From the NCBI RefSeq assembly GCF_003149185.1, contig NZ_QGDO01000001.1, positions 62,001 through 126,000 on the forward strand: a stretch of 64,000 bases of DNA, read 5' to 3'. The notes beneath the pieces are model-generated. The model saw only the letters and a program-made list of their open reading frames with translations, made no database searches and was not told where the DNA came from. Shown one piece after another: positions 4,080 to 18,223 of this stretch. This DNA is from Sediminitomix flava. GTDB taxonomy: Bacteria > Bacteroidota > Bacteroidia > Cytophagales > Flammeovirgaceae. Both the position numbers and the translations under genes were made by a program. Numbering within the stretch: position 1 is the first letter of the stretch; each line of letters starts with the position of its first letter.

Positions 4080-7000
4080 TTATTTAATAAGCTTATTGAA
4101 TACTTTTGGTGTTCCATCAATAATCAATGTGTAGATATACATACCTGATTGAAGTACAGATGTGTCATACTCCACTTCTGAAGTTCCAACAGACTTTCTA
4201 CCTGCTTCAATGCTATCTACTAATTGACCTTGCATGTTATAAACCATAATCTTCACATCAGCTGCTTCTGTAAGATCGAATGAGAATTTAGTACTTGCTG
4301 TAACTGGATTTGGATAGTTCATCAACTTGAACTTGTTTGCAAGGATCTCATCTTCTACTCCTGTAACTAATGCTTCTCTAACAATTACAGATACTACTTT
4401 TACTACAGATGCCATTTCTGGGTCATAAGCAGTAATTGCAATTTCTGTTTCACCTTCTTTGATAGCTGAAATGATAAACTCATTATTAGCAAAACCTGAA
4501 ACAACAATTCCATCGTTATTGTCGGCAATACCATAAGTCAACTCATCTCCGTCAGGGTCAGTGATCGCTTGTGTAGCATCCCAGTAGAATACTTCTCCCA
4601 AGTCAATTACAATTGTATCAATTTCCTCTGCAACAGGAGCTCTGTTGACATTCATTACTTCTACATCAATAGTAGCAGTTGTTGTAATTCCATATTCATC
4701 TACACCAACGATATCGAATGAATGCATACCAGAATGATCAAAAGACGGTGTAAGTGAAATATTCACTTGATTACCTTCAATTGTAGCTGTACCTAAATCA
4801 TCGAGATTCTCGATCGAAATTGTGAAGTCATGAGACTCAGGATCCATTAAGTTATAACTTAACATTAATGTATCTCCCTCATTCATGCTCTGCTTTTCAA
4901 CGTTACCATAAACTTGTGGGCCTTTGTTGATGTACATACTCGCGATGAATGAGCTTTCATCTTCAGACAAATCAGGGTCATTTGTGATAATCGCTACTTT
5001 CGCGATCAACTCATTTGCTCCTCTTCTGAATCTAGCATCAAAACTAGCAGTTACATCTAGGCTATCACCCATCTCGATTACACCTTCATCATGACTCAAT
5101 TTGAACCACGTACCATCTACTTTATCTTGAGCATACGCTCTAGCATAGTAACCTGTTGTAGCAAATCTTGTATCAGTTGTAATATCGATCAAGCCGTCAT
5201 CTGCCACGAAATAGAACGTTTCAGCATAAGTCTGGTCTAATGCGATCAAACCTTGAGGGTATGTAGCATCTGCTTCATAAGTGAAGGCTACATAGATATT
5301 TTCACCTGAGAAGAATAATACTTCTTCACTCAATTCAAACAACTCTGCTTTACCCGTTTGTTCTGAAGAACTTGTTTCTGTAGTAAATGTCTCAGTATGA
5401 AGTGTAACAAGATTGTCAATCGTTCCTGTCATTACTTCTACTTTGATTTTTCCATTCTCAAGTCCTTCTGGTCTGTACCAAGTAGATACATGTGATAAAC
5501 CAAAACCTCCTTCTGGAGCGATGAATTTAGTCATAGAAGTCATTTCTTGACTACCACCATATCCAAGTGAATTTGAGATTTCGATATCTTCTGCTCCGTA
5601 ATAAAGTGCTTGATAGAAATTCGAATCTGCTACTGCATTTGCATATGAAGTAATCCCTACAAACTCATTTATCATTAGAGCTACAGCACTTGCCGAAGAA
5701 GAGAAATCAGGCATCATTACCTCTCCTTGGTACTGATAATCAATTGCAAACTGATAATGTAGAGGATATTCGCCATTTTTATTACTGATGTTGAATGACA
5801 TTTCCTCTTGGTGATCTTCTACCATAGCTACAACAGCTAAAGTATCAGCCATATCAGACTCAAATACTGGAGGCAAATAGAAGTTAGCTTTCACTAAAAG
5901 CTCATGCATACTACCATCTGCATAGTTCAATTTAAGAGTATCTTCATATACCCCAGGTTCAGTTGGCTTAAGAACTACTTGAGCATCTACAACCTCATTT
6001 ACTTTAATTACTAAAGGCTTATAGAATGGATTCAAGAATAAGTTATAGTCTACAAATCCTGGAATAGCAGGGAATGGCAACCAAGGGTTAACTTCCTCTA
6101 AAGTTCCCCAGAATTCTAAACCAAGGTTTGAATCTGAAATCACTTCAATTTCTCCTTCAGCTAAAGTATGATGAGCTGTACCTTTATTTTCAATTGCAAA
6201 CTGATGTCTTGTCCACCATCCTGGTTGATAAAGAACATCACCCAAGTCAAGTTCTTCAACATTCCAAGACAATGCTGACTCTCCATTTACAGTCAAGTTT
6301 ACAGGAATTGAAATATCTTCACTGTTTGGCGTATGGTTTACAAAAGTAAGATTAGTAACATAGTCTCCTCCAATCAATTCTGTTGCGTTCAACTCAAAAG
6401 TAATGTCTTTACTTTCTCCAGCAGCAATATTGATAACTTCTGAAGGCGTGAACTCAATTACTAAGTTATCTTTAATCAGACTTCTATAGAAATTCGCCAT
6501 TGTACCTTCTGTACCATCAATATTTTCAACTCCTACTACCAAATTGTGATTCCATTGGTCAATTGTCTCTTGGTTAATTGTTTTGTATTGCATTTTGATT
6601 CTGCCATCCAAGTACAAAACAACTTGAGCTTCTACCAATCCACCATTTCCTTCTCCGAACGAATGTACCCAACGGTAGTAAGTAAATACCGCTTTATCTT
6701 CAAACTCTTTGAAGTAGATACCTTTCATATCATTTTCATCGAAGTAATCATAACCCGTTAATCCCCAGAATACAGCGATAAAGTTGTTAAACTTATCTTC
6801 AAAAGGAATAACGTTGTTGATGATTGGTGCTAATTGAACAGGCTCAGTAAATGTGATAATACCAGGGTAACCCATCCAAGCAGTAGAATACTCTTCTCCG
6901 TAGAACATAAATGGTTTCTCAAAGTCAATCTTAGCAGACATGATCGATTGATCGAAATCCAATTTTTGACCTTCTCCATTTGTTACAATCTCAATCCAGT

Positions 7001-10000
7001 CAAATAGTGGTGCATCAGGATCTTCAAGACCAATCAATGCATCATCATTATGATTGAAGTAATATTCAAAGTCTCTCAACGATGGTAGAGACATTGCTCC
7101 AACATCAGATTTCTTTTCATATAACCAGTTGCTTCCTTTTGTCAACATTCTAAGCGTAGTATCTCCTGCTACGTTAGAAACATTTACTGTAAATTCAGCT
7201 TTCTCACCATGATTCAATGTGAATGACGATTGATCATAAGTTAAATCAATAGCAGGTGCACCGATAACATTCGCACTTACATCAAACACATATGTATTAT
7301 TCATGTCATCCGTAAATGTAATCTGATCTGAGTACTCACCTAGCTCTGAAGCATCAAAGTAAACTTTTACTGTTGTACCTAATCTAGCTTTAAGTTCAAA
7401 TGTCTCTTTGTTTACAGAGAATTTAGAACCGTCAGCAAAAGAAGTCGATACTATATCAGCATTGCTATTTCCATCATTCAGGAATGAAATCACTCTGAAT
7501 AGATCTGTTCCTCTGTAAATCGAACCGAAATCAACTGTATTATCTGAAGTTGATACAATTGCTTCACCACCTTCATTGATATCTACATTTACTGTGAAAT
7601 GTGCAATTGGTAAAGATGGGTCATTATTTTCGATCGCAATATTTTGCGTATTCACACCTTCTACCAAGCCGTCAGTATCAATATCAAAAGTAATCTCCAA
7701 TGAGTCACCAACAGCAACTACACCATTTGTATGAGATAGATTTGAAATGATTTTTGAACCAGGGAACGTGATATCAATCCAAGTTGGTTGCGCCCAATAC
7801 CCAAACAATCTTTCTGGTTTTCTATATACATCATAGAAGTAAATACCATCTTGCTTGTCAGGACTCTCGATACCCATCATAGGATCCCAAATATCAGCAT
7901 CAGACCAATAAACATCTAGGTATCTCATTTCTGCGTGACCATCGTAGTAAACTGCCAATTGGAAGTTCATTGGTTCTCCAGATAATCCGTGAGTTACTTT
8001 TGAATGTACATTTTTATATTCAAATACTACGTGATCATCAAATACATGATAAAGTAGTTTTGTATCGTGAAGTAGATCAAAGTACTGGTAATAAATCGCA
8101 AAGTACCCATTTGAAGTAAAGCTAGAACCTAGCAAACCACCCCAAGAACCATTTACAGGATCTTTATCATCCAACGCGATCAAACCAATATGCGACATAT
8201 AAAGCTTGTTCACTAAAGTATCGTAGAATGGGAATTTGAAGCTCAAATCTACTTCTACGAAGTCAAGGAAAGGATTACTCTTAAACTGATCAGTAACATC
8301 AACTGTACCATCCATTCCATCAATTTCTTCCCAAGTGAAGCCATCATTTCTCAACTCCCAAGCATAACCAAACTTATGTCCACCTTCTTTACTTGGTTTC
8401 GAGCTATATTTAGGAATGTTGAAATCCAATGGGTAATCACCTTCATTCTTGATCATAATAGAAGATGTAGCTGCAGCCCCATGTGCCAAATAATGAACTT
8501 GCGATTGAGGTGTAACAGCGATCTCAGCTGGTGCTTCACCATTACCAAACAGATTTACAACTGCTTTGTAACCATTTCTATCTGTGATTGATAAAACTGC
8601 ATTCGAGTTACCAGGAGTTGTAGGTACATATTTCACTACTAAGTCTTCAGCAGTTCTTGGCATTACATTGTATGGCTTAGAAACGATTTCAAAAGGAGAA
8701 CCATCTAAACCTTCGAAAGTAAATGAACCTTTAAACAAACCGTAACCATAGTTCTCCATTCTGATGATCAACTCTCTTTCAGAACCAACTTGAACAGAAC
8801 CAAAATCCACAATACCAGGAGTAATCAAGTTTGGTTCTTGACCCGCAATTGTAACTTTAGTCGAGATTCTAGCATCTGCTGCATTCTCATCATTAGATTT
8901 GATCAAGATATTAGTCTCAACATCACCATTCTTCAAGTGAGAAATATCTGCACTGAATTCTACCTCAGTTTCTCCTACTCCATTGATCATTCCTTTTGCT
9001 GGAGTCAATGAAATGAAGTCACCTTGATATTCTTCGTCAGTAAATGCACCCATAGTAAATGCCCATCCTGGCTCTTGCAAAGCATCTGCTAAATTATTCC
9101 AAGATGTTCCATCATCGAATGAAATCCATTGGTACCTCTCCGCATCTGGATGATCTGTGATACTGCTAATACCAATTGGGTAACGGTTACCTGCTGGTAC
9201 TTTTACCACTAACCACAGAATATCATTTTGCTGTACATAATATGATTCATTGTAATCCAATGAAATAGTATGAGAACCTTCTTGTGTATCTTCAATTTCT
9301 TTTGACAATACCAATTTAGCATCTGCTAAAATATCTCCATGATAAATTTCTACAGTTGCTTTTCCTGTAGAGATATTATTCAAATAAACATCCATTTCTG
9401 TGATATTGAATCCATCAGGATTAGACACAGAGTAGGCTGCAGCGATTGTATTTGATTTTGACAAATCTTCATCTCCGATCAAATAAACTGCATAGAATGA
9501 CTCCGTATAGTAAAGATACTCGTTTTTAAACTCACGAAGTGGCTCATAATCTTCATTACGAACTACATCAAGTGGCATTACACGAGATCTCTCTAAAGAA
9601 ATATCAGCATTTTGAGGGTAACCCAAACTAGCATTTGCCCATGATTTAACATAAACATCTGTTTGTCTTGTTTCCAATTCCCACTCCAAAAGTGCATCAT
9701 TGGTATTACCAATCATAAATGTGTCAACAACAACAGTACTCTCAGTAACATCACCATCTAAATCAATAGCAAATGACCATGAGTTTGGCGCTTCTGGGTA
9801 TGTCATCGCTGGTCCCATATTAGTCGTAAAAGTAAGTTCTTCTGACAAGTCTGAAGGATTTCCCCAACGGTCAAAAGCTTGTACTTTCAAACTATAATCT
9901 GTAGAAGATGTAAGCTCTTCAATTCTATACTCATAAGTCTCTCCTGCTGCTACATCTGAGAATACGAAAATTTCTCTCGCTGTATTCTCATCAAAAGCAC

Positions 10001-11687
10001 CTTCCGAGAGGATGATTTTAAACTTACTAGGTTTTTCATCATCCTCATCAGCAGGTACCGTCCAATTCAAGTCAACAAAATCGTTTGAGATTGCTGATAC
10101 TATTAATCCGGTTGTAACCTCTGGACCAATGCCTGAGTTTTCTTTTATAGCTAAGCTTGCATCAATTAAACCTGTTCCTAACTGTCCAATAAAATCAGGA
10201 GCTGTTTCATCGAGTGACAAACCTGCAAATACAATTTGATTCTTTAGTACATCTTGAGAAAAATCGCCTCCACCTAGTTTTGAAACAACTAAGGCCGCAA
10301 TACCACTCACATGTGGACAAGCCATTGATGTTCCGTCTAAGTAACCATACTCATTACCAGGTAACGTACTCAATACACCATAAGATTGTCCCTGCCAAGT
10401 ATCTCCACCAGGAGCTGCAATTTCAATCCATGATCCAAAGTTTGAGTAAGAAGCTTTGTCTCTTGTTCCATCAGTAGATGCTACAGCAACTACAGACTCG
10501 TAATAACCAGGGTAATATGCTGCATTTCTACCATCATTTCCTGCGGCAAAAATAACAATACCACCTCGCATAGGGCTTCCTTCATAATCACCTGCCTCAG
10601 CAATAAAATAATCAATCGCATCAAGTACAGATTGCTCATACTGACCTGGAACTAAATATCCCCAAGAGTTTTGAGAGATAACAGCACCATTATTCGCTGC
10701 ATAAATAAATGCTGAAGCGAGGTCTCCTCCTCCTCCGCCTTCTGATAAAATCTGGCAGGCCATGATACGAACACCATCTCCATTTCCAGAACCACCAGCT
10801 ACACCAGCTACACCTACACCATTATTATTCACTGCCGCTACTGTACCCGCAACGTGTGTACCGTGAGTTTCTGGATCAATGTTTCCAGAGTTATTGGTGA
10901 AGTTATAACCATATACATCATCGATATAGCCATTACCATCATCATCTACTCCGTCTTCACCATTAAGCTCGGCTTCGTTGATCCACATATTGTCTCTCAA
11001 ATCTTCATGATCGACATCAATACCACCATCTGTTACAGCTACAATAACATTTGTAGAACCTGTAACTTCTGCCCATGCTTTATCCAATTGAATAGAAGCA
11101 TCAGCTCTCTTTCCTGCTTGGCTTCCATCATTAAAATAATGCCATTGGCTAGAAAGTAGTGGGTCATCCATTGTCATAGAAGCAGAAGCATTTGCTGTAA
11201 TAGCAGCAACCTCTTCCTCTGACAATACTCGAACACCTTTTTCACCACCAATAAGTCTTTTTTCAAGAATTGGCTCTGAAAGCTCTACCGTTTCTACATT
11301 GTTATACGCTCTACAAACCACAGTAGGGTCTACATCTAAATCGTACTCAATGTTGTACCAAAGATGCAATCCGTGCTTTCTTAGTTTGTGTTCAAATTTG
11401 GCATCATAAGGAAAAACTCTTTCCAAATGATGCCCATTGAATTGCTTTGATACTGCGTCAAAGCTGGCAATTCCTAATTGCCCTGTACTCAGTCCTCCAT
11501 AACTAACTGTTTGAAGTTTGTCTGCTGTACTTTCAGCAAATTTTACGCGAATGATTCCTTTCGCTTGTCCTTGGTTGTTGTAATTAACAATACCTGTTCT
11601 TCCCTGAGCCGTTGCTGTGTAATACTTGTGGGATGAAATAATACAGCACAGACTCAAAAAGACAAAGAGTAAACATCTTCTCATCAT
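4080..11687 (-). CDS. Giant secreted S8 subtilase with T9SS sorting domain
   Basis: A 2,535-residue extracellular serine endopeptidase. After the signal peptide (residues 1-28) and a propeptide-like region, the S8 domain carries Asp220 (VTDGGID), His275 (ETHGTHVAG), oxyanion Asn384 (AAGND) and Ser454 (DGTSMACP), so the triad is intact. An acidic DDDGNGYIDDVYG loop (about 248-260) looks like a calcium site. A fibronectin type III-like domain follows at about 520-620. The long middle holds several repeats of the 'choice-of-anchor D'/HYDIN-like kind (VDFGSVQVGSERELIIRMENYG, VDFGSIYRGTDLFRVISFLNDG) and cadherin-like segments (NRAPVAEEIDTIVIDLGEVF). The last 85 residues (YPNPVTASTKFSFDL ... GMYIYTLIIDG) form a type A T9SS C-terminal domain for outer-membrane export and surface anchoring. 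It shares an ATGA-type overlap with the 50-codon frame upstream. Two hairpins follow. Confidence 0.95.
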   Translation of the reverse strand: MMRRCLLFVFLSLCCIISSHKYYTATAQGRTGIVNYNNQGQAKGIIRVKFAESTADKLQTVSYGGLSTGQLGIASFDAVSKQFNGHHLERVFPYDAKFEHKLRKHGLHLWYNIEYDLDVDPTVVCRAYNNVETVELSEPILEKRLIGGEKGVRVLSEEEVAAITANASASMTMDDPLLSSQWHYFNDGSQAGKRADASIQLDKAWAEVTGSTNVIVAVTDGGIDVDHEDLRDNMWINEAELNGEDGVDDDGNGYIDDVYGYNFTNNSGNIDPETHGTHVAGTVAAVNNNGVGVAGVAGGSGNGDGVRIMACQILSEGGGGGDLASAFIYAANNGAVISQNSWGYLVPGQYEQSVLDAIDYFIAEAGDYEGSPMRGGIVIFAAGNDGRNAAYYPGYYESVVAVASTDGTRDKASYSNFGSWIEIAAPGGDTWQGQSYGVLSTLPGNEYGYLDGTSMACPHVSGIAALVVSKLGGGDFSQDVLKNQIVFAGLSLDETAPDFIGQLGTGLIDASLAIKENSGIGPEVTTGLIVSAISNDFVDLNWTVPADEDDEKPSKFKIILSEGAFDENTAREIFVFSDVAAGETYEYRIEELTSSTDYSLKVQAFDRWGNPSDLSEELTFTTNMGPAMTYPEAPNSWSFAIDLDGDVTESTVVVDTFMIGNTNDALLEWELETRQTDVYVKSWANASLGYPQNADISLERSRVMPLDVVRNEDYEPLREFKNEYLYYTESFYAVYLIGDEDLSKSNTIAAAYSVSNPDGFNITEMDVYLNNISTGKATVEIYHGDILADAKLVLSKEIEDTQEGSHTISLDYNESYYVQQNDILWLVVKVPAGNRYPIGISSITDHPDAERYQWISFDDGTSWNNLADALQEPGWAFTMGAFTDEEYQGDFISLTPAKGMINGVGETEVEFSADISHLKNGDVETNILIKSNDENAADARISTKVTIAGQEPNLITPGIVDFGSVQVGSERELIIRMENYGYGLFKGSFTFEGLDGSPFEIVSKPYNVMPRTAEDLVVKYVPTTPGNSNAVLSITDRNGYKAVVNLFGNGEAPAEIAVTPQSQVHYLAHGAAATSSIMIKNEGDYPLDFNIPKYSSKPSKEGGHKFGYAWELRNDGFTWEEIDGMDGTVDVTDQFKSNPFLDFVEVDLSFKFPFYDTLVNKLYMSHIGLIALDDKDPVNGSWGGLLGSSFTSNGYFAIYYQYFDLLHDTKLLYHVFDDHVVFEYKNVHSKVTHGLSGEPMNFQLAVYYDGHAEMRYLDVYWSDADIWDPMMGIESPDKQDGIYFYDVYRKPERLFGYWAQPTWIDITFPGSKIISNLSHTNGVVAVGDSLEITFDIDTDGLVEGVNTQNIAIENNDPSLPIAHFTVNVDINEGGEAIVSTSDNTVDFGSIYRGTDLFRVISFLNDGNSNADIVSTSFADGSKFSVNKETFELKARLGTTVKVYFDASELGEYSDQITFTDDMNNTYVFDVSANVIGAPAIDLTYDQSSFTLNHGEKAEFTVNVSNVAGDTTLRMLTKGSNWLYEKKSDVGAMSLPSLRDFEYYFNHNDDALIGLEDPDAPLFDWIEIVTNGEGQKLDFDQSIMSAKIDFEKPFMFYGEEYSTAWMGYPGIITFTEPVQLAPIINNVIPFEDKFNNFIAVFWGLTGYDYFDENDMKGIYFKEFEDKAVFTYYRWVHSFGEGNGGLVEAQVVLYLDGRIKMQYKTINQETIDQWNHNLVVGVENIDGTEGTMANFYRSLIKDNLVIEFTPSEVINIAAGESKDITFELNATELIGGDYVTNLTFVNHTPNSEDISIPVNLTVNGESALSWNVEELDLGDVLYQPGWWTRHQFAIENKGTAHHTLAEGEIEVISDSNLGLEFWGTLEEVNPWLPFPAIPGFVDYNLFLNPFYKPLVIKVNEVVDAQVVLKPTEPGVYEDTLKLNYADGSMHELLVKANFYLPPVFESDMADTLAVVAMVEDHQEEMSFNISNKNGEYPLHYQFAIDYQYQGEVMMPDFSSSASAVALMINEFVGITSYANAVADSNFYQALYYGAEDIEISNSLGYGGSQEMTSMTKFIAPEGGFGLSHVSTWYRPEGLENGKIKVEVMTGTIDNLVTLHTETFTTETSSSEQTGKAELFELSEEVLFFSGENIYVAFTYEADATYPQGLIALDQTYAETFYFVADDGLIDITTDTRFATTGYYARAYAQDKVDGTWFKLSHDEGVIEMGDSLDVTASFDARFRRGANELIAKVAIITNDPDLSEDESSFIASMYINKGPQVYGNVEKQSMNEGDTLMLSYNLMDPESHDFTISIENLDDLGTATIEGNQVNISLTPSFDHSGMHSFDIVGVDEYGITTTATIDVEVMNVNRAPVAEEIDTIVIDLGEVFYWDATQAITDPDGDELTYGIADNNDGIVVSGFANNEFIISAIKEGETEIAITAYDPEMASVVKVVSVIVREALVTGVEDEILANKFKLMNYPNPVTASTKFSFDLTEAADVKIMVYNMQGQLVDSIEAGRKSVGTSEVEYDTSVLQSGMYIYTLIIDGTPKVFNKLIK

Positions 11688-14728: not shown

Positions 14729-14768
14729 AGAGCGTAAAGTCAAGAAAATCATTCTGACTTTACGCTCT
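14729..14768 (-). terminator. Terminator of the DJ-1/HbpS/propeller unit
   Basis: A perfect 14-bp stem (14729-14742 with 14755-14768), a 12-base loop and a T-rich tail (TTTGTTTT) on the minus strand, 45 bp after the propeller gene stop. Confidence 0.85.
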
Positions 14769-14813
14769 CATACACCCACAATAACTGATCGTTGTTTTAA
14801 TTGAATACCCTCA

Positions 14814-16358
14814 TCAAGGAGTTTGTAAACTTGTATTTAGAGTCCAATAATCCATTACAAAAACGTCATCTAATAATGGTCCTACTTTTTGTACAAGAGC
14901 CAAATGAGCCTTGTGGAAAAGGTAGATTTCTCTGCCATGCGCATTATTAAATGTCAAAGTAAAACAGTATTGGAAACCTTTGCTATGCCCTTCTGTACTG
15001 TTGTTTAAGCCCCATTCCATATGAGCAATTTCTGGAATCTGATTTTTTAGGTTCGAGAATCGAGCTACGGCTTCATCGATCTTGTTTTGGCTAACGTCAG
15101 CCTTGAATTTAAGATTGACAACATGTCTCAAGACTTTACCTTTTGTGCTAGGGCTGTTGAGAGCGACTTTATAACTCACCAACTGTTTTAGGTCAAAACG
15201 AACTGCTCCTGCAATGAAAAGTAATTCATCTTTTACTTTCAAGGCATTCAAACCGTAATAGATAGGAAAACCCGTTTTTAGAGAAGACAGAGGTGATAGT
15301 ACTCCCTCTTTATTCAGTTTACAAAGCTGAATGCTTTCGTCATCTCTTGTTCCTACCGCTACAATTGCTTCTTCATCATTGGTCTTCAGAATTTCGATTC
15401 TTGTTTGACCCGAAAGCAATGTTGTTTCGTCATCGATTAGGGTAGAATGAGGAAGAAGTTCACCTCTCTTATTTACCTTGAAAACACTCACCGCATCTCC
15501 GTGATAAACGAAATCTTTCTTCTTGATGAAGTTGATTCTTTTGTAGTATTTGTGGTGTCTGTGTCCTACCACTACATAGTGGTTGTCTCCTAAAGTAACA
15601 CCTGTAACAGGATACGTACCTGTCAAGAAACGGTCTGTTGTATTATCACTGATATTTGTGATGTTTTTGAAACGACCGCTTTCATAAACTCTAAAACCAC
15701 TTAGACCATTGTCTTGAAAACCTCCTGTGTACAGATAAGTCTTTCCATTGATTTTATGTACATACATCCCAATGATACCATCCGTGTGAATTTTATCATT
15801 GTCTTTTTGGGATTGTACATGTGTTAGAGAACCGTTAGACTGAATTTTGAAACAGCTTAAACCCGGTGTTTTTTCCAAACCACCGACAAAAAGGTAAGCC
15901 GCATTTTTCATTTTGATTACCTGTAGCGTAATGACTGTTCCGATATACGTTTCGTCAGTATCGTTTAGAATAAAGACTCTTTCTAGTGAGCCATTTTCTA
16001 GTATTTTGAATACTTCTACTGCATTTGCTCCTTTATTTCCCACAAAAAGGTAATCAGTTCCACTGATTTGAGAAGCTACCAATCCTCTCGCTGGACCTTT
16101 ACCAATAGCAAGTTCATGTCTGCTGATCGCAGAAAGTGCTCCGTTTTGATCAAGGGAAAAAACGTCTATATTTCCACCATCTCCTCCAGAATAGACATAG
16201 TGAGAATTTCCTTTCTCATAACTAGTGACACTAACAGTGTTGTTTGCTGTACCTTTAAAATCTTGTCGGTTAAGCGTTGCTTCTTCAGTAGTTTGAGCAA
16301 AACTGATCGAAGATAAAAAGAGTATGCTAACGAGCAGGATACTTTTAATGCTGTTCAT
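14814..16358 (-). CDS. Exported beta-propeller protein with C-terminal Dabb domain
   Basis: A 514-residue protein with a signal peptide (cleavage near SFAQ). Residues about 35-400 are repeating blades of the lactonase/YncE beta-propeller kind (VYSGGDGGNIDVFSLDQNGALS, LFVGNKGANAVEVFKILENGSL, LYTGGFQDNGLSGFRVYESGRF). Residues about 408-508 form a stress-responsive A/B-barrel (Dabb) domain with the diagnostic LRHVVNLKFK start, a GFQYCFTLTF strand and a HKAHLALVQKVGPLLDDVFVMDYW end. Dabb domains normally occur alone in small dimeric proteins; joined to a periplasmic propeller this is an unusual architecture. It is the last gene of a three-gene unit (26 bp after the HbpS-like gene) and is followed by a strong terminator. 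Enzyme activity is not established for this combination. Confidence 0.85.
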   Translation of the reverse strand: MNSIKSILLVSILFLSSISFAQTTEEATLNRQDFKGTANNTVSVTSYEKGNSHYVYSGGDGGNIDVFSLDQNGALSAISRHELAIGKGPARGLVASQISGTDYLFVGNKGANAVEVFKILENGSLERVFILNDTDETYIGTVITLQVIKMKNAAYLFVGGLEKTPGLSCFKIQSNGSLTHVQSQKDNDKIHTDGIIGMYVHKINGKTYLYTGGFQDNGLSGFRVYESGRFKNITNISDNTTDRFLTGTYPVTGVTLGDNHYVVVGHRHHKYYKRINFIKKKDFVYHGDAVSVFKVNKRGELLPHSTLIDDETTLLSGQTRIEILKTNDEEAIVAVGTRDDESIQLCKLNKEGVLSPLSSLKTGFPIYYGLNALKVKDELLFIAGAVRFDLKQLVSYKVALNSPSTKGKVLRHVVNLKFKADVSQNKIDEAVARFSNLKNQIPEIAHMEWGLNNSTEGHSKGFQYCFTLTFNNAHGREIYLFHKAHLALVQKVGPLLDDVFVMDYWTLNTSLQTP

Positions 16359-16384
16359 ATAAAAAGTAAGTTAAAGTTTTGGGA

Positions 16385-16873
16385 TTACTCAATAGCTGCT
16401 AATGCCCCAGTAGTAGCTATTTCGTGATCTTGTTCGATAGTGCCTCCACTGACGCCAATTGCTCCTATGATTTCTCCATCATCATTTTTAATTGGTACAC
16501 CACCAGGGAAACTGATTAAGCCATCATTAGATACTTCAATATTATAAATAATTCCACCGGGTTGAGTAAGTTTCCCAAGATCTCCTGTGGCAATATTGAA
16601 ATACCTTGCAGTTTTCGCTTTTTTGACTGCTACATCTATACTTCCTAAATAGGATTCATCCATACGCAAAAAAGCTTTCAAGTTCGCTCCAGCATCCACT
16701 ACGGCAATATTGACCAATACATTGTCTTTCTCCGCTTTTTCTTTGGCTGCCAACATCACTTTTAGAGCATCTTCTTGCGTAATGTTGTAAGTCACTTGAG
16801 CATGAGCCAATGTGCATATCGATGAGAGGATAAATATAAGGATAAAACCTTTTATATGTTGAAAGGACTTCAT
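16385..16873 (-). CDS. Exported HbpS/GlcG (DUF336) family protein
   Basis: A 162-residue protein with a signal peptide (to about AHAQ) and a complete HbpS-like domain: ALKVMLAAKEKAEKDNVLVNIAVVDAGANLKAFLRMDESYLGSIDVAVKKAKTA, then PGGVPIKNDDGEIIGAIGVSGG. Family members bind haem or small metabolites, and HbpS itself is an extracellular haem-binding/redox sensor partner; the ligand here is unknown. Its ATG overlaps the stop of the DJ-1 gene (ATGA), so the two are translationally coupled, and the propeller gene follows after 26 bp. Confidence 0.85.
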   Translation of the reverse strand: MKSFQHIKGFILIFILSSICTLAHAQVTYNITQEDALKVMLAAKEKAEKDNVLVNIAVVDAGANLKAFLRMDESYLGSIDVAVKKAKTARYFNIATGDLGKLTQPGGIIYNIEVSNDGLISFPGGVPIKNDDGEIIGAIGVSGGTIEQDHEIATTGALAAIE

Positions 16874-17562
16874 GACTCAGAATTTAGTTGTTTTAGTAGT
16901 AACTCAGCGACAAGAATAGATGAGGCAGGATTTTGCCCTGTGATTAAGTGACCATCTTCTATAGCATAAGATGCCCAATCCTCTGCATTCGAGAAGATTC
17001 CGCCTTTATTTTTCAATTCATCTTCTACCAAAAATGGAACGATACCGTCTAATTCAATCGCTTTTTCTTCGCTATTGGTAAAAGAGGTTAATTTTTTTCC
17101 TTTTACAAGCGGTTCACCCGAAGCTAAAACAGCATCTTTCAATACGACAGGAGCATGACAAACGGCAGCCACAGGCTTATTTTGCGTATAAAATTGCTCT
17201 ATAAGCCCCACAGAAGTTTTGTTCTCGGCTAAATCCCAAAGTGGACCGTGACCTCCTGGGTAAAAGATAGCATCAAAGTCATTTGGGTTGACTGTGCTTA
17301 TTTCTGAAGTATTAGAAAGTTTGACTTGTAATTCTTTGTCATTGTTGAATCTGACAGTTGAAGGAGTTTGAGAACCCTCATCATCACTTTTCGGATCGAT
17401 AGGAGGCTGTCCACCTTTTGGAGAACTTAAAGTAACGTCAACATTATTGTCAGTAAGGTAATAATAAGGAGCTGCAAACTCCTCTATCCAAAAACCTGTT
17501 TTTTCACCTGTGTCTCCCAAACGGTCGTGGCTTGTGAGAATAAATAATACTTTCTTCATCAT
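16870..17562 (-). CDS. DJ-1/PfpI family protein, Hsp31-like
   Basis: A cytoplasmic 230-residue protein of the DJ-1/PfpI superfamily. The nucleophile elbow is AAVCHAPVVL (Cys135, His136) and the acidic partner is in GFWIEEFAAPYYYL (Glu27/Glu28); the PGGHGPLWDL motif (102-111) is also typical. These features match the class-I-glutamine-amidotransferase-like group that includes Hsp31 holdase/glyoxalase III proteins. Likely role is detoxification of reactive carbonyls or protein deglycation/chaperone activity, inferred from family only. It is the first gene of the unit, 18 bp downstream of a TAATTTTG promoter element and a 16-bp palindrome, with the Crp/Fnr-type gene upstream on the same strand. 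Confidence 0.85.
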   Translation of the reverse strand: MMKKVLFILTSHDRLGDTGEKTGFWIEEFAAPYYYLTDNNVDVTLSSPKGGQPPIDPKSDDEGSQTPSTVRFNNDKELQVKLSNTSEISTVNPNDFDAIFYPGGHGPLWDLAENKTSVGLIEQFYTQNKPVAAVCHAPVVLKDAVLASGEPLVKGKKLTSFTNSEEKAIELDGIVPFLVEDELKNKGGIFSNAEDWASYAIEDGHLITGQNPASSILVAELLLKQLNSES

Positions 17563-17579
17563 TTACATTTGTTTGAAGA

Positions 17580-17587
17580 CAAAATTA
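17580..17587 (-). promoter_or_regulatory. Putative -7 element TAATTTTG for the DJ-1 operon
   Basis: Matches the Bacteroidota TAnnTTTG promoter consensus on the minus strand. With a start site about 7 bases on, the palindrome centre at 17616.5 falls near -41, as expected for class II activation; no TTTG -33 motif is seen at the usual distance, which also fits activator dependence. Confidence 0.5.
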
Positions 17588-17608
17588 GTGCTCCAAATCA
17601 AAAGAATG

Positions 17609-17624
17609 GTTGAACTAGTTCAAC
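17609..17624. promoter_or_regulatory. Perfect 16-bp palindrome, probable Crp/Fnr-type operator
   Basis: GTTGAACTAGTTCAAC is a perfect inverted repeat in the 82-bp gap between the Crp/Fnr-like regulator gene and the DJ-1 gene. Size and two-fold symmetry suit a CRP-superfamily dimer. Confidence 0.6.
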
Positions 17625-17644: not shown

Positions 17645-18223
17645 TTATTTTTGGGGTTGCTTTTTCAGTTTGCTTAGGAATTCATAGGTAATGCCTAAGT
17701 AGCTTGCAATCTGCCTATCGGTGAGTTTGGATGAGATATTGGGGTAATCTCCGATAAATTGATGGTATCGCTCTTTGGCTGTAAGGCAATTGCTATTGAT
17801 CAAACGTCTTTGCCAAGCTACAAGTGCTTTTTGAGACATAACTCTGAACAACTTTTCTACTGCAGGGAGTGATTCATACAAAGCGAGTTTATCAGACCTT
17901 TTGATTAAAAGTACTTCACTATCTTCTATGGCTTGGATATTTAGGTTTGAGGGACTCTGATTCATAAAGCTATCAATATCCATCAACCACCAATCTTTTA
18001 CGGCAAAGTATAAAGTAATTTCATTACCCTTTTTGTCAAGAGTAAAGACTCGAAAACAACCATCCAAAACAAAGCCTTCAAACTTGCAAAGTTCTCCTTG
18101 TTCTAAAACGAACTCCTTTTTATTTATAGTTTTAGGCTGAAAATACTGGCAGAATTCGTCTAATTCATCCTTTGAGAATTGTACATTTCGCTGTATGTTT
18201 TCTTTTAGTAATTGGTGTGTCAT
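17645..18223 (-). CDS. Crp/Fnr family transcriptional regulator
   Basis: A 192-residue regulator. Residues about 20-120 form a cyclic-nucleotide-binding-type beta-roll (KEFVLEQGELCKFEGFVLDGCFRVF, VKDWWLMDIDSF). Residues about 145-190 carry a helix-turn-helix (SKLTDRQIASYLGITYEFLSKLKKQ). The cAMP phosphate-binding arginine motif is not apparent, so the effector is probably not cAMP; this matches the many Bacteroidota Crp/Fnr proteins of this size with unknown ligands. It lies immediately upstream of the DJ-1 operon on the same strand, and a perfect palindrome sits in the gap, so it probably activates that operon. Confidence 0.85.
   Translation of the reverse strand: MTHQLLKENIQRNVQFSKDELDEFCQYFQPKTINKKEFVLEQGELCKFEGFVLDGCFRVFTLDKKGNEITLYFAVKDWWLMDIDSFMNQSPSNLNIQAIEDSEVLLIKRSDKLALYESLPAVEKLFRVMSQKALVAWQRRLINSNCLTAKERYHQFIGDYPNISSKLTDRQIASYLGITYEFLSKLKKQPQK

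Follow-up and report, generated by a model that had tools for sequence, protein, structure and literature searches.

A stretch of 64 kb (hereafter the window) from the 6.6-Mb draft genome of Sediminitomix flava contains a perfect palindrome of 16 nucleotides (nt), GTTGAACTAGTTCAAC, between a Crp/Fnr-type regulator gene and a DJ-1 gene, and this locus raises the question of whether the palindrome is the operator of the neighbouring regulator and how the genes behind it are controlled. The regulator is quite probably a local, dedicated Crp/Fnr class II activator of the adjoining operon, as judged from the arrangement of the sequence. What was observed directly is the set of parts and how well they are conserved, the constant spacing, the fact that site and regulator are linked, and a further copy of the site ahead of an operon part that has split off. 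The parts in the window were found to be as follows.

17645-18223, minus strand: Crp/Fnr-type regulator of 192 amino acids (aa) with the recognition helix GITYEFLSK (Pfam cNMP_binding, E 2.1e-9)
17609-17624: putative operator GTTGAACTAGTTCAAC with the core TTGAACTAGTTCAA at 17610-17623, assigned by its conservation in regulator loci
17580-17587, minus strand: -7 promoter element TAATTTTG, assigned by the TTTG that begins 33.5 nt from the operator centre
16870-17562, minus strand: DJ-1/PfpI-family protein, 230 aa, accessory gene (Pfam DJ-1_PfpI, E 1.2e-16)
16385-16873, minus strand: HbpS-like protein, 162 aa, core gene, signal-peptide-like start (Pfam HbpS-like, E 6.4e-37)
14814-16358, minus strand: beta-propeller with C-terminal Dabb domain, 514 aa, core gene, signal-peptide-like start (Pfam Dabb, E 2.3e-23; Lactonase, E 4e-5)
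14729-14768, minus strand: hairpin resembling a terminator, with a stem of 14 bp, a loop of 12 nt and a T-rich tail

The palindrome was found 20 nt past the stop codon of the regulator and 46 nt ahead of the start codon of DJ-1, with its centre 33 nt from the centre of the -7 element and 33.5 nt from the first T of the TTTG. The DJ-1 and HbpS-like genes overlap in ATGA, followed by a gap of 26 nt to the propeller-Dabb gene and by the hairpin, which contained a perfect 14-bp stem (14729-14742/14755-14768) and an interrupted T-rich tail. The RNA fold of the hairpin had a z of -6.8 (none of 200 shuffles equally stable); a terminator scanner with a loop limit of 8 nt gave no entry for this hairpin with its 12-nt loop. 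The place of the palindrome, the 33-bp centre distance, the tight packing and the 14-bp-stem terminator agreed with a preliminary description of this DNA.

Taken alone, without its conservation, the palindrome suggests but does not establish something other than chance: when the dinucleotides of the 82-nt gap were shuffled 20,000 times, a perfect 16-nt palindrome turned up in 48 of the shuffles, and four such palindromes were found in the entire window. The arrangement stands far above chance because of its conservation among relatives. The genome-wide search proposed in the preliminary description found no second exact 16-bp copy, GTTGAACTAGTTCAAC being the sole one in the 6.6-Mb genome, and the core TTGAACnnGTTCAA was found twice, the second time within a reading frame of 2026 aa. 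A genome-wide regulon in the own genome was rejected on this count of exact sites, and sites with at most one mismatch to the core were fewer than those of the reversed pattern (42 versus 51). The TAnnTTTG motif was ordinary in the window (87 found, 83 expected).

To follow the conservation, the window was taken together with 11 loci from relatives (L041-L051) and 80 loci of a species collection (the best 80 of 501 confirmed relatives), 92 in all. Removal of five loci that repeated a genome already present left 87 non-redundant loci. The core TTGAACnnGTTCAA was found exact within 300 nt behind the regulator in 75 of the 87 loci and with one mismatch in three more, and the arrangement spans more than twenty named genera and is shared by many marine relatives. 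The 64 HbpS-like/propeller operons contained 60 exact sites and three with one mismatch, one being without a site, followed by 11 exact sites in the 11 metallohydrolase operons (cluster 8) and one in the single operon of another protein. The 11 loci with none of these operons contained three exact sites and eight without a site, one of the eight (L089) being cut at a contig end. Operator and operon are thus mostly retained or lost jointly while the regulator stays. The preliminary description had held that loss of the palindrome in relatives with both regulator and DJ-1 would speak against it; the site passed this check, being exact in Flexithrix and having one mismatch in Wenyingzhuangia sp. 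2_MG-2023.

In most loci the palindrome lies 9-25 nt past the regulator stop, often with a T-rich stretch after it, as would be expected if it were a terminator or RNA hairpin ending the regulator mRNA. The RNA fold of the palindrome was like that of shuffles (z -0.21), however, and the three one-mismatch loci break the symmetry without a compensating change. The same site was also found between divergent genes and, in genome G001, far from the regulator. There the operon was found to be split, with the regulator, a site and the HbpS-like gene at 1.447 Mb and, at 3.05 Mb, a second site ahead of an SDR gene and of the propeller gene, which shows 66% identity over 507 aa; both sites contained TTTG at 33.5 nt, the parts being 1.6 Mb apart. 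The distant site therefore strongly favours an operator and disfavours a terminator, and a terminator or other RNA element, rejected because of the z of -0.21 and this copy, is left with hardly any probability.

The TTTG of the promoter starts at exactly 33.5 nt from the centre of the operator in 69 of the 75 loci with an exact core, and four of the remaining six contained TTTA at the same offset, whereas TTTG at other offsets was found in 0.84 loci on average and in 14 at most. The second position of the -7 box was occupied by A in 70 of the 75 loci. Class II activation is a classic mode of Crp/Fnr proteins, in which CRP and FNR of Escherichia coli sit at -41.5. The TAnnTTTG box of Flavobacterium psychrophilum is described at -12 to -5 in the available part of PMC9723704. 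With this box position the TTTG would start at -8, which puts the centre of the operator at -41.5, and the class II placement near -41 in the preliminary description is borne out by the fixed spacing together with the published position of the box.

A second arrangement was found in seven loci, six behind paralogs with the helix GMSAEFLSK (31-35% identical to the window regulator) and one at L052, in which the TTTG was found at 56.5 nt and not at 33.5 nt. The best second operator match (9-11 of 14 letters) was found 23 nt further in all seven, 33.5 nt from a TTTG, two pairs of the loci being near copies. These loci may be read as a full site at -64.5 with a degenerate site at -41.5. The next gene in L166, one of the six, was an SDR gene by Pfam.

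The spacing bears on the main rival of activation, in which the regulator would be a repressor that holds the operon off by binding the palindrome until a signal releases it. Crp/Fnr proteins can act in either way, as argued from the positions of HcpR sites in Desulfovibrio in the accessible text of PMC545781, and the window promoter might act unaided, its -7 box being a full consensus and a -33 motif not being the rule in flavobacteria. Against this, the site is located on the upstream side of the -7 box and does not cover the box or the start; its spacing is exact to the base in the 69 loci, as expected for contact with RNA polymerase, and most relatives have an incomplete -7 box. Repression is accordingly rated as improbable, though it is the rival to be taken most seriously.

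The linkage of site and regulator was also found with a scan by pattern only, in which 395 genomes of the phylum, among them the own genome, were searched for TTGAACnnGTTCAA-N26-TTTG. The scan gave 23 matches in 20 genomes against one for the reversed pattern, and a gene of this regulator group was found adjoining or one gene off in 17 of the 20 genomes. These 17 comprised three HbpS/propeller operons, one metallohydrolase operon, two cases with the regulator behind its target (isochorismatase in L211) and 11 divergent cases, in which the regulator is transcribed away from an exported protein (pectate lyase by Pfam in L203, the sole one of the 11 that was scanned). The other three sites were found within reading frames. 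In 41 regulator-bearing genomes, the exact core was counted 95 times against 25 times for the reversed pattern, as summed from a per-genome table. Reichenbachiella versicolor (G123, L149-L157) contained nine exact cores, the most of the 41 genomes, six of them outside reading frames and three of these six behind Crp/Fnr genes.

It might also be supposed that the site is mainly read by another Crp/Fnr protein of the cell and that its neighbour is incidental, as 13 more genes of the genome match the regulator and the same operator also adjoins paralogs in other species. Yet the regulator gene stands directly ahead of the site in 75 of the 87 loci, the scan by pattern only led back to the own regulator group, and three other layouts of this kind in the own genome differ in their inner bases and contained the helix ETLSR. 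We therefore consider such a reader very unlikely and keep to the adjoining regulator as the activator.

The regulator itself was found to belong to the Crp/Fnr superfamily. The beta roll was recognised by Pfam cNMP_binding (37.7 bits, cut-off 27.5), and the AlphaFold2 model (pLDDT 92), built from 48 good alignment rows and one wrongly oriented row (L203:770-1339:-, 17% identity), had a normal Crp/Fnr fold and aligned to CRP, FNR and GlxR, the nearest solved structure being 3dn7, followed by CRP/FNR-type proteins. A search by sequence likewise gave 3dn7 first and FNR next. The C-terminal winged helix was supported by a profile alignment running through the FNR helix and by full-length structural matches; the Pfam scan gave no separate helix-turn-helix match. 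The protein scored far below the cut-offs for orthologues of cAMP-CRP (NF008732, 20.3 against 266 bits) and of FNR (NF008365, 21.9 against 228 bits). The residues E181, F182 and K185 were invariant and S184 was conserved in 91 of 92 rows (five duplicates included), followed by Cys56 in 90, Cys46 in 76 and Cys25 in 71 of the 92. A thiol switch in the regulator is thus possible, though not indicated.

The CRP half-site has the consensus TGTGA, and FNR has TTGA-N6-TCAA geometry with residue contacts to its TTGA half-sites. The FNR helix VETISR was found to align residue by residue to the family consensus HEFLSK, with the same Glu and Ser and with Lys in place of Arg, and this fits TTGA half-sites. 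Of the CRP-type operator in the preliminary description, the assignment to the Crp/Fnr type stands, whereas the CRP likeness does not, since TTGA-N6-TCAA is FNR-like.

In the mechanism which we infer, the regulator dimer would bind TTGAACnnGTTCAA when its signal is present, and Glu181, Ser184 and Lys185 in the recognition helix would recognise the TTGA half-sites in the manner of FNR. The dimer at -41.5 would then contact RNA polymerase in the class II manner, and the polymerase would start behind the -7 box and transcribe DJ-1, the HbpS-like gene and the propeller-Dabb gene up to the hairpin. Inference extends to the binding itself, to the choice of activation over repression, and to both the signal and the role of the operon.

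The content of the operon was found to be nearly constant in two genes, with the HbpS-like gene in 62 and the propeller gene in 63 of the 64 operons. DJ-1, which the preliminary description took as a defining part, was found in this place in three of the 64 (the window, Flexithrix and Wenyingzhuangia sp. 2_MG-2023) and is accessory; nor is the completeness of the unit, as described there, supported, since an SDR gene follows in 43 of the 64 and the window operon is without it. The starts of the HbpS-like and propeller-Dabb proteins are signal-peptide-like as judged by eye, and both proteins are probably exported. The structure model of the propeller-Dabb protein (pLDDT 87) had beta-propeller proteins as its top structural matches. 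The HbpS-type haem-responsive system has haem binding and a sensor-kinase partner, and the likeness here is the Pfam domain alone; no evidence was found for methylglyoxal, haem or peroxide as the signal. The operon may perhaps handle a small exported or reactive metabolite.

The 210-aa HbpS-like frame of G001 (L041, 5717-6349, minus strand) was found to open with codons like those at the start of DJ-1 (MMKKALFISTSH). This hints at a deletion scar, with DJ-1 formerly behind the operator there. The split-off part of the same genome (L267, 1210-5228) lies directly behind a gene of 741 aa, which is katG/catalase-peroxidase-like by eye. In the regulator tree, the regulators of the own family were found mixed among those of Flavobacteriaceae, with the pairs of the window and Flavicella sediminum (99/79) and of G001 and Wenyingzhuangia heitensis (96/70), both just below the threshold of the tool. 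The interleaving gives a hint that the module may have spread by horizontal transfer.

The layout was not confined to one regulator. The own genome contained 14 Crp/Fnr genes, and TTGA-N6-TCAA-N26-TTTG was found directly behind three more of them (TTGATATTTGTCAA, TTGACGATCGTCAA and TTGATTTGAATCAA), each with a full TAnnTTTG; at two of these sites the regulator's stop codon falls within the site. With the window included, the layout was found at four of the 14 genes against about 0.003 expected by random placement. A Crp/Fnr gene was found at the generic site in 11 of 30 loci of relatives (one site per genome) and, with TAnnTTTG, in six of 29 in the class, one of the six being divergent with an unlike helix. 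The TGA stop of the regulator was found to be part of the TTGA half-site of the presumed operator in several loci (L265, 1406-1409; L266, 1179-1182; and others). The target of one further layout in the own genome (L264, 2299-2994) was found to be of the iodothyronine deiodinase family by Pfam, with weak matches to redoxin families.

As a genome-wide marker, the generic pattern was set aside as weak by the control with N23. The own genome contained 18 matches against one for the reversed pattern, a control that overstates the difference, as gaps of 20-32 together gave 146 matches, or about 11 per gap against the 18 at N26.

The inner bases of the operator were compared with the helix in 93 distinct regulators for which TTTG lies at the fixed offset from a generic site, many of whose loci had been picked by the TTGAAC pattern or by similarity. 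The helix E-F/Y-L/V-S-K/R was found with TTGAAC/GTTCAA in 78 of them and the helix E-T/A-x-S-R with TTGAT or TTGAC in 14, followed by L078, a doubtful match in front of its gene. In a tree of 105 rows, the regulators with AC operators formed one group except for L081, a second match in a locus that also contained the exact AC site, and the link of helix and operator is therefore close to a single evolutionary event. A general helix-to-DNA code was rejected, as the loci were selected, the event is nearly single and 13 of 14 paralogs with E-F helices lack the site nearby.

It is conceivable, though we lean slightly against it, that these loci belong to a family of plug-in switches of Bacteroidota. 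A local Crp/Fnr gene would be followed directly by its operator, often over its own TGA stop, at -41.5 of a promoter with only a -7 box, with varied operons plugged in; the inner bases would follow the helix (AC/GT for E-F/Y-L/V-S-K/R, others for E-T/A-x-S-R) and tandem versions would add a full site at -64.5. The operons named so far comprise exported HbpS/propeller proteins, metallohydrolases, SDRs, pectate lyase, isochorismatase and NDH2-like genes. This reading was lowered because of the 13 paralogs with E-F helices that are without the site nearby. If true, the family would give a readable specificity code.

Several findings weigh against the regulator as a local class II activator. Position by itself is no proof of activation, and the full TAnnTTTG was found at the fixed offset in only four of the 75 exact loci, the window among them, the first T being mostly absent in relatives. 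Of 46 further exact sites (21 genomes, among the matches listed), 25 were found inside reading frames and 13 at most 100 nt from a Crp/Fnr gene; the six sites behind GMSAEFLSK paralogs are among the 46. Among 14 paralogs with an E-F-L/F-S-x helix (25 loci), 13 were without TTGAACnnGTTCAA within 400 nt, the sole exception being L038 with a TTGAAC operator within that distance, and the excess of the generic N26 form over the N23 control was modest (344 against 250 in 58 genomes). The missing -33 motif of the preliminary description is indeed missing, but it gives no weight to activation, because no -33 element at all was identifiable in Flavobacterium johnsoniae in the available part of PMC7366714 and its absence is ordinary in flavobacteria.

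Among known systems, FNR (Escherichia coli; solved chains from Aliivibrio fischeri) was found to share the fold, the aligned helix, the palindrome geometry and the class II position. The window operator differs in its inner bases, AC/GT against T/A in FNR, and the N-terminal region of FNR that holds the Fe-S cysteines is without a counterpart here, as the alignment begins at chain residue 42. FNR also controls a global regulon, whereas a local operon with a Bacteroidota -7 promoter is found here. The cyclic-nucleotide-binding regulatory protein of Cytophaga hutchinsonii (3dn7) is the nearest solved structure by sequence and fold and contained EYLSE in the helix in place of EFLSK; we know of no function or DNA site for it. 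How the many Crp/Fnr paralogs of Bacteroidota act is, to our knowledge, little described.

BT4338, the Crp-like master regulator of Bacteroides thetaiotaomicron, is likewise an activator of the Bacteroidota; its site is palindromic and accompanied by a putative -7 box, and it apparently does not use cAMP, but it differs in its motif wwwTATGTTnTAnAACATAwww and in a global regulon of carbohydrate genes, as given in the accessible parts of PMC6989115 and PMC3878776, which state no distance to the -7 box. HcpR of Porphyromonas gingivalis, also a Crp-family protein of the Bacteroidota, raises the expression of hcp and differs in a haem-dependent response to nitric oxide (PMC12750200, in the part available), and hcpR often adjoins hcp in other species (PMC545781, likewise). 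No mention of this operator or of base-exact spacing on such promoters was found in a literature search that left most subscription journals outside.

The promoters of Bacteroidota differ from those of model bacteria, and the present arrangement suggests that these bacteria, with their unusual promoters, use classic CRP/FNR activation. Since the spacing is exact to the base over more than twenty named genera and holds for several targets that are not related to one another, start sites, operators and target operons can be predicted for regulators that have yet to be studied. Class II activation at such promoters also becomes directly testable in laboratory flavobacteria. An operon with two probably exported proteins also gains a defined switch as a handle.

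Outside the operator and the -7 box, a T-rich stretch was found in the window (TTCT, 17603-17606, minus strand) and in relatives, with T at 10-14 nt downstream of the operator centre (alignment positions 17-20) in 78, 74, 73 and 67 of 80 loci, duplicates included. A reading frame of 2535 aa (4080-11687), by eye a secreted subtilisin-like protease, was found about 3 kb downstream of the module.

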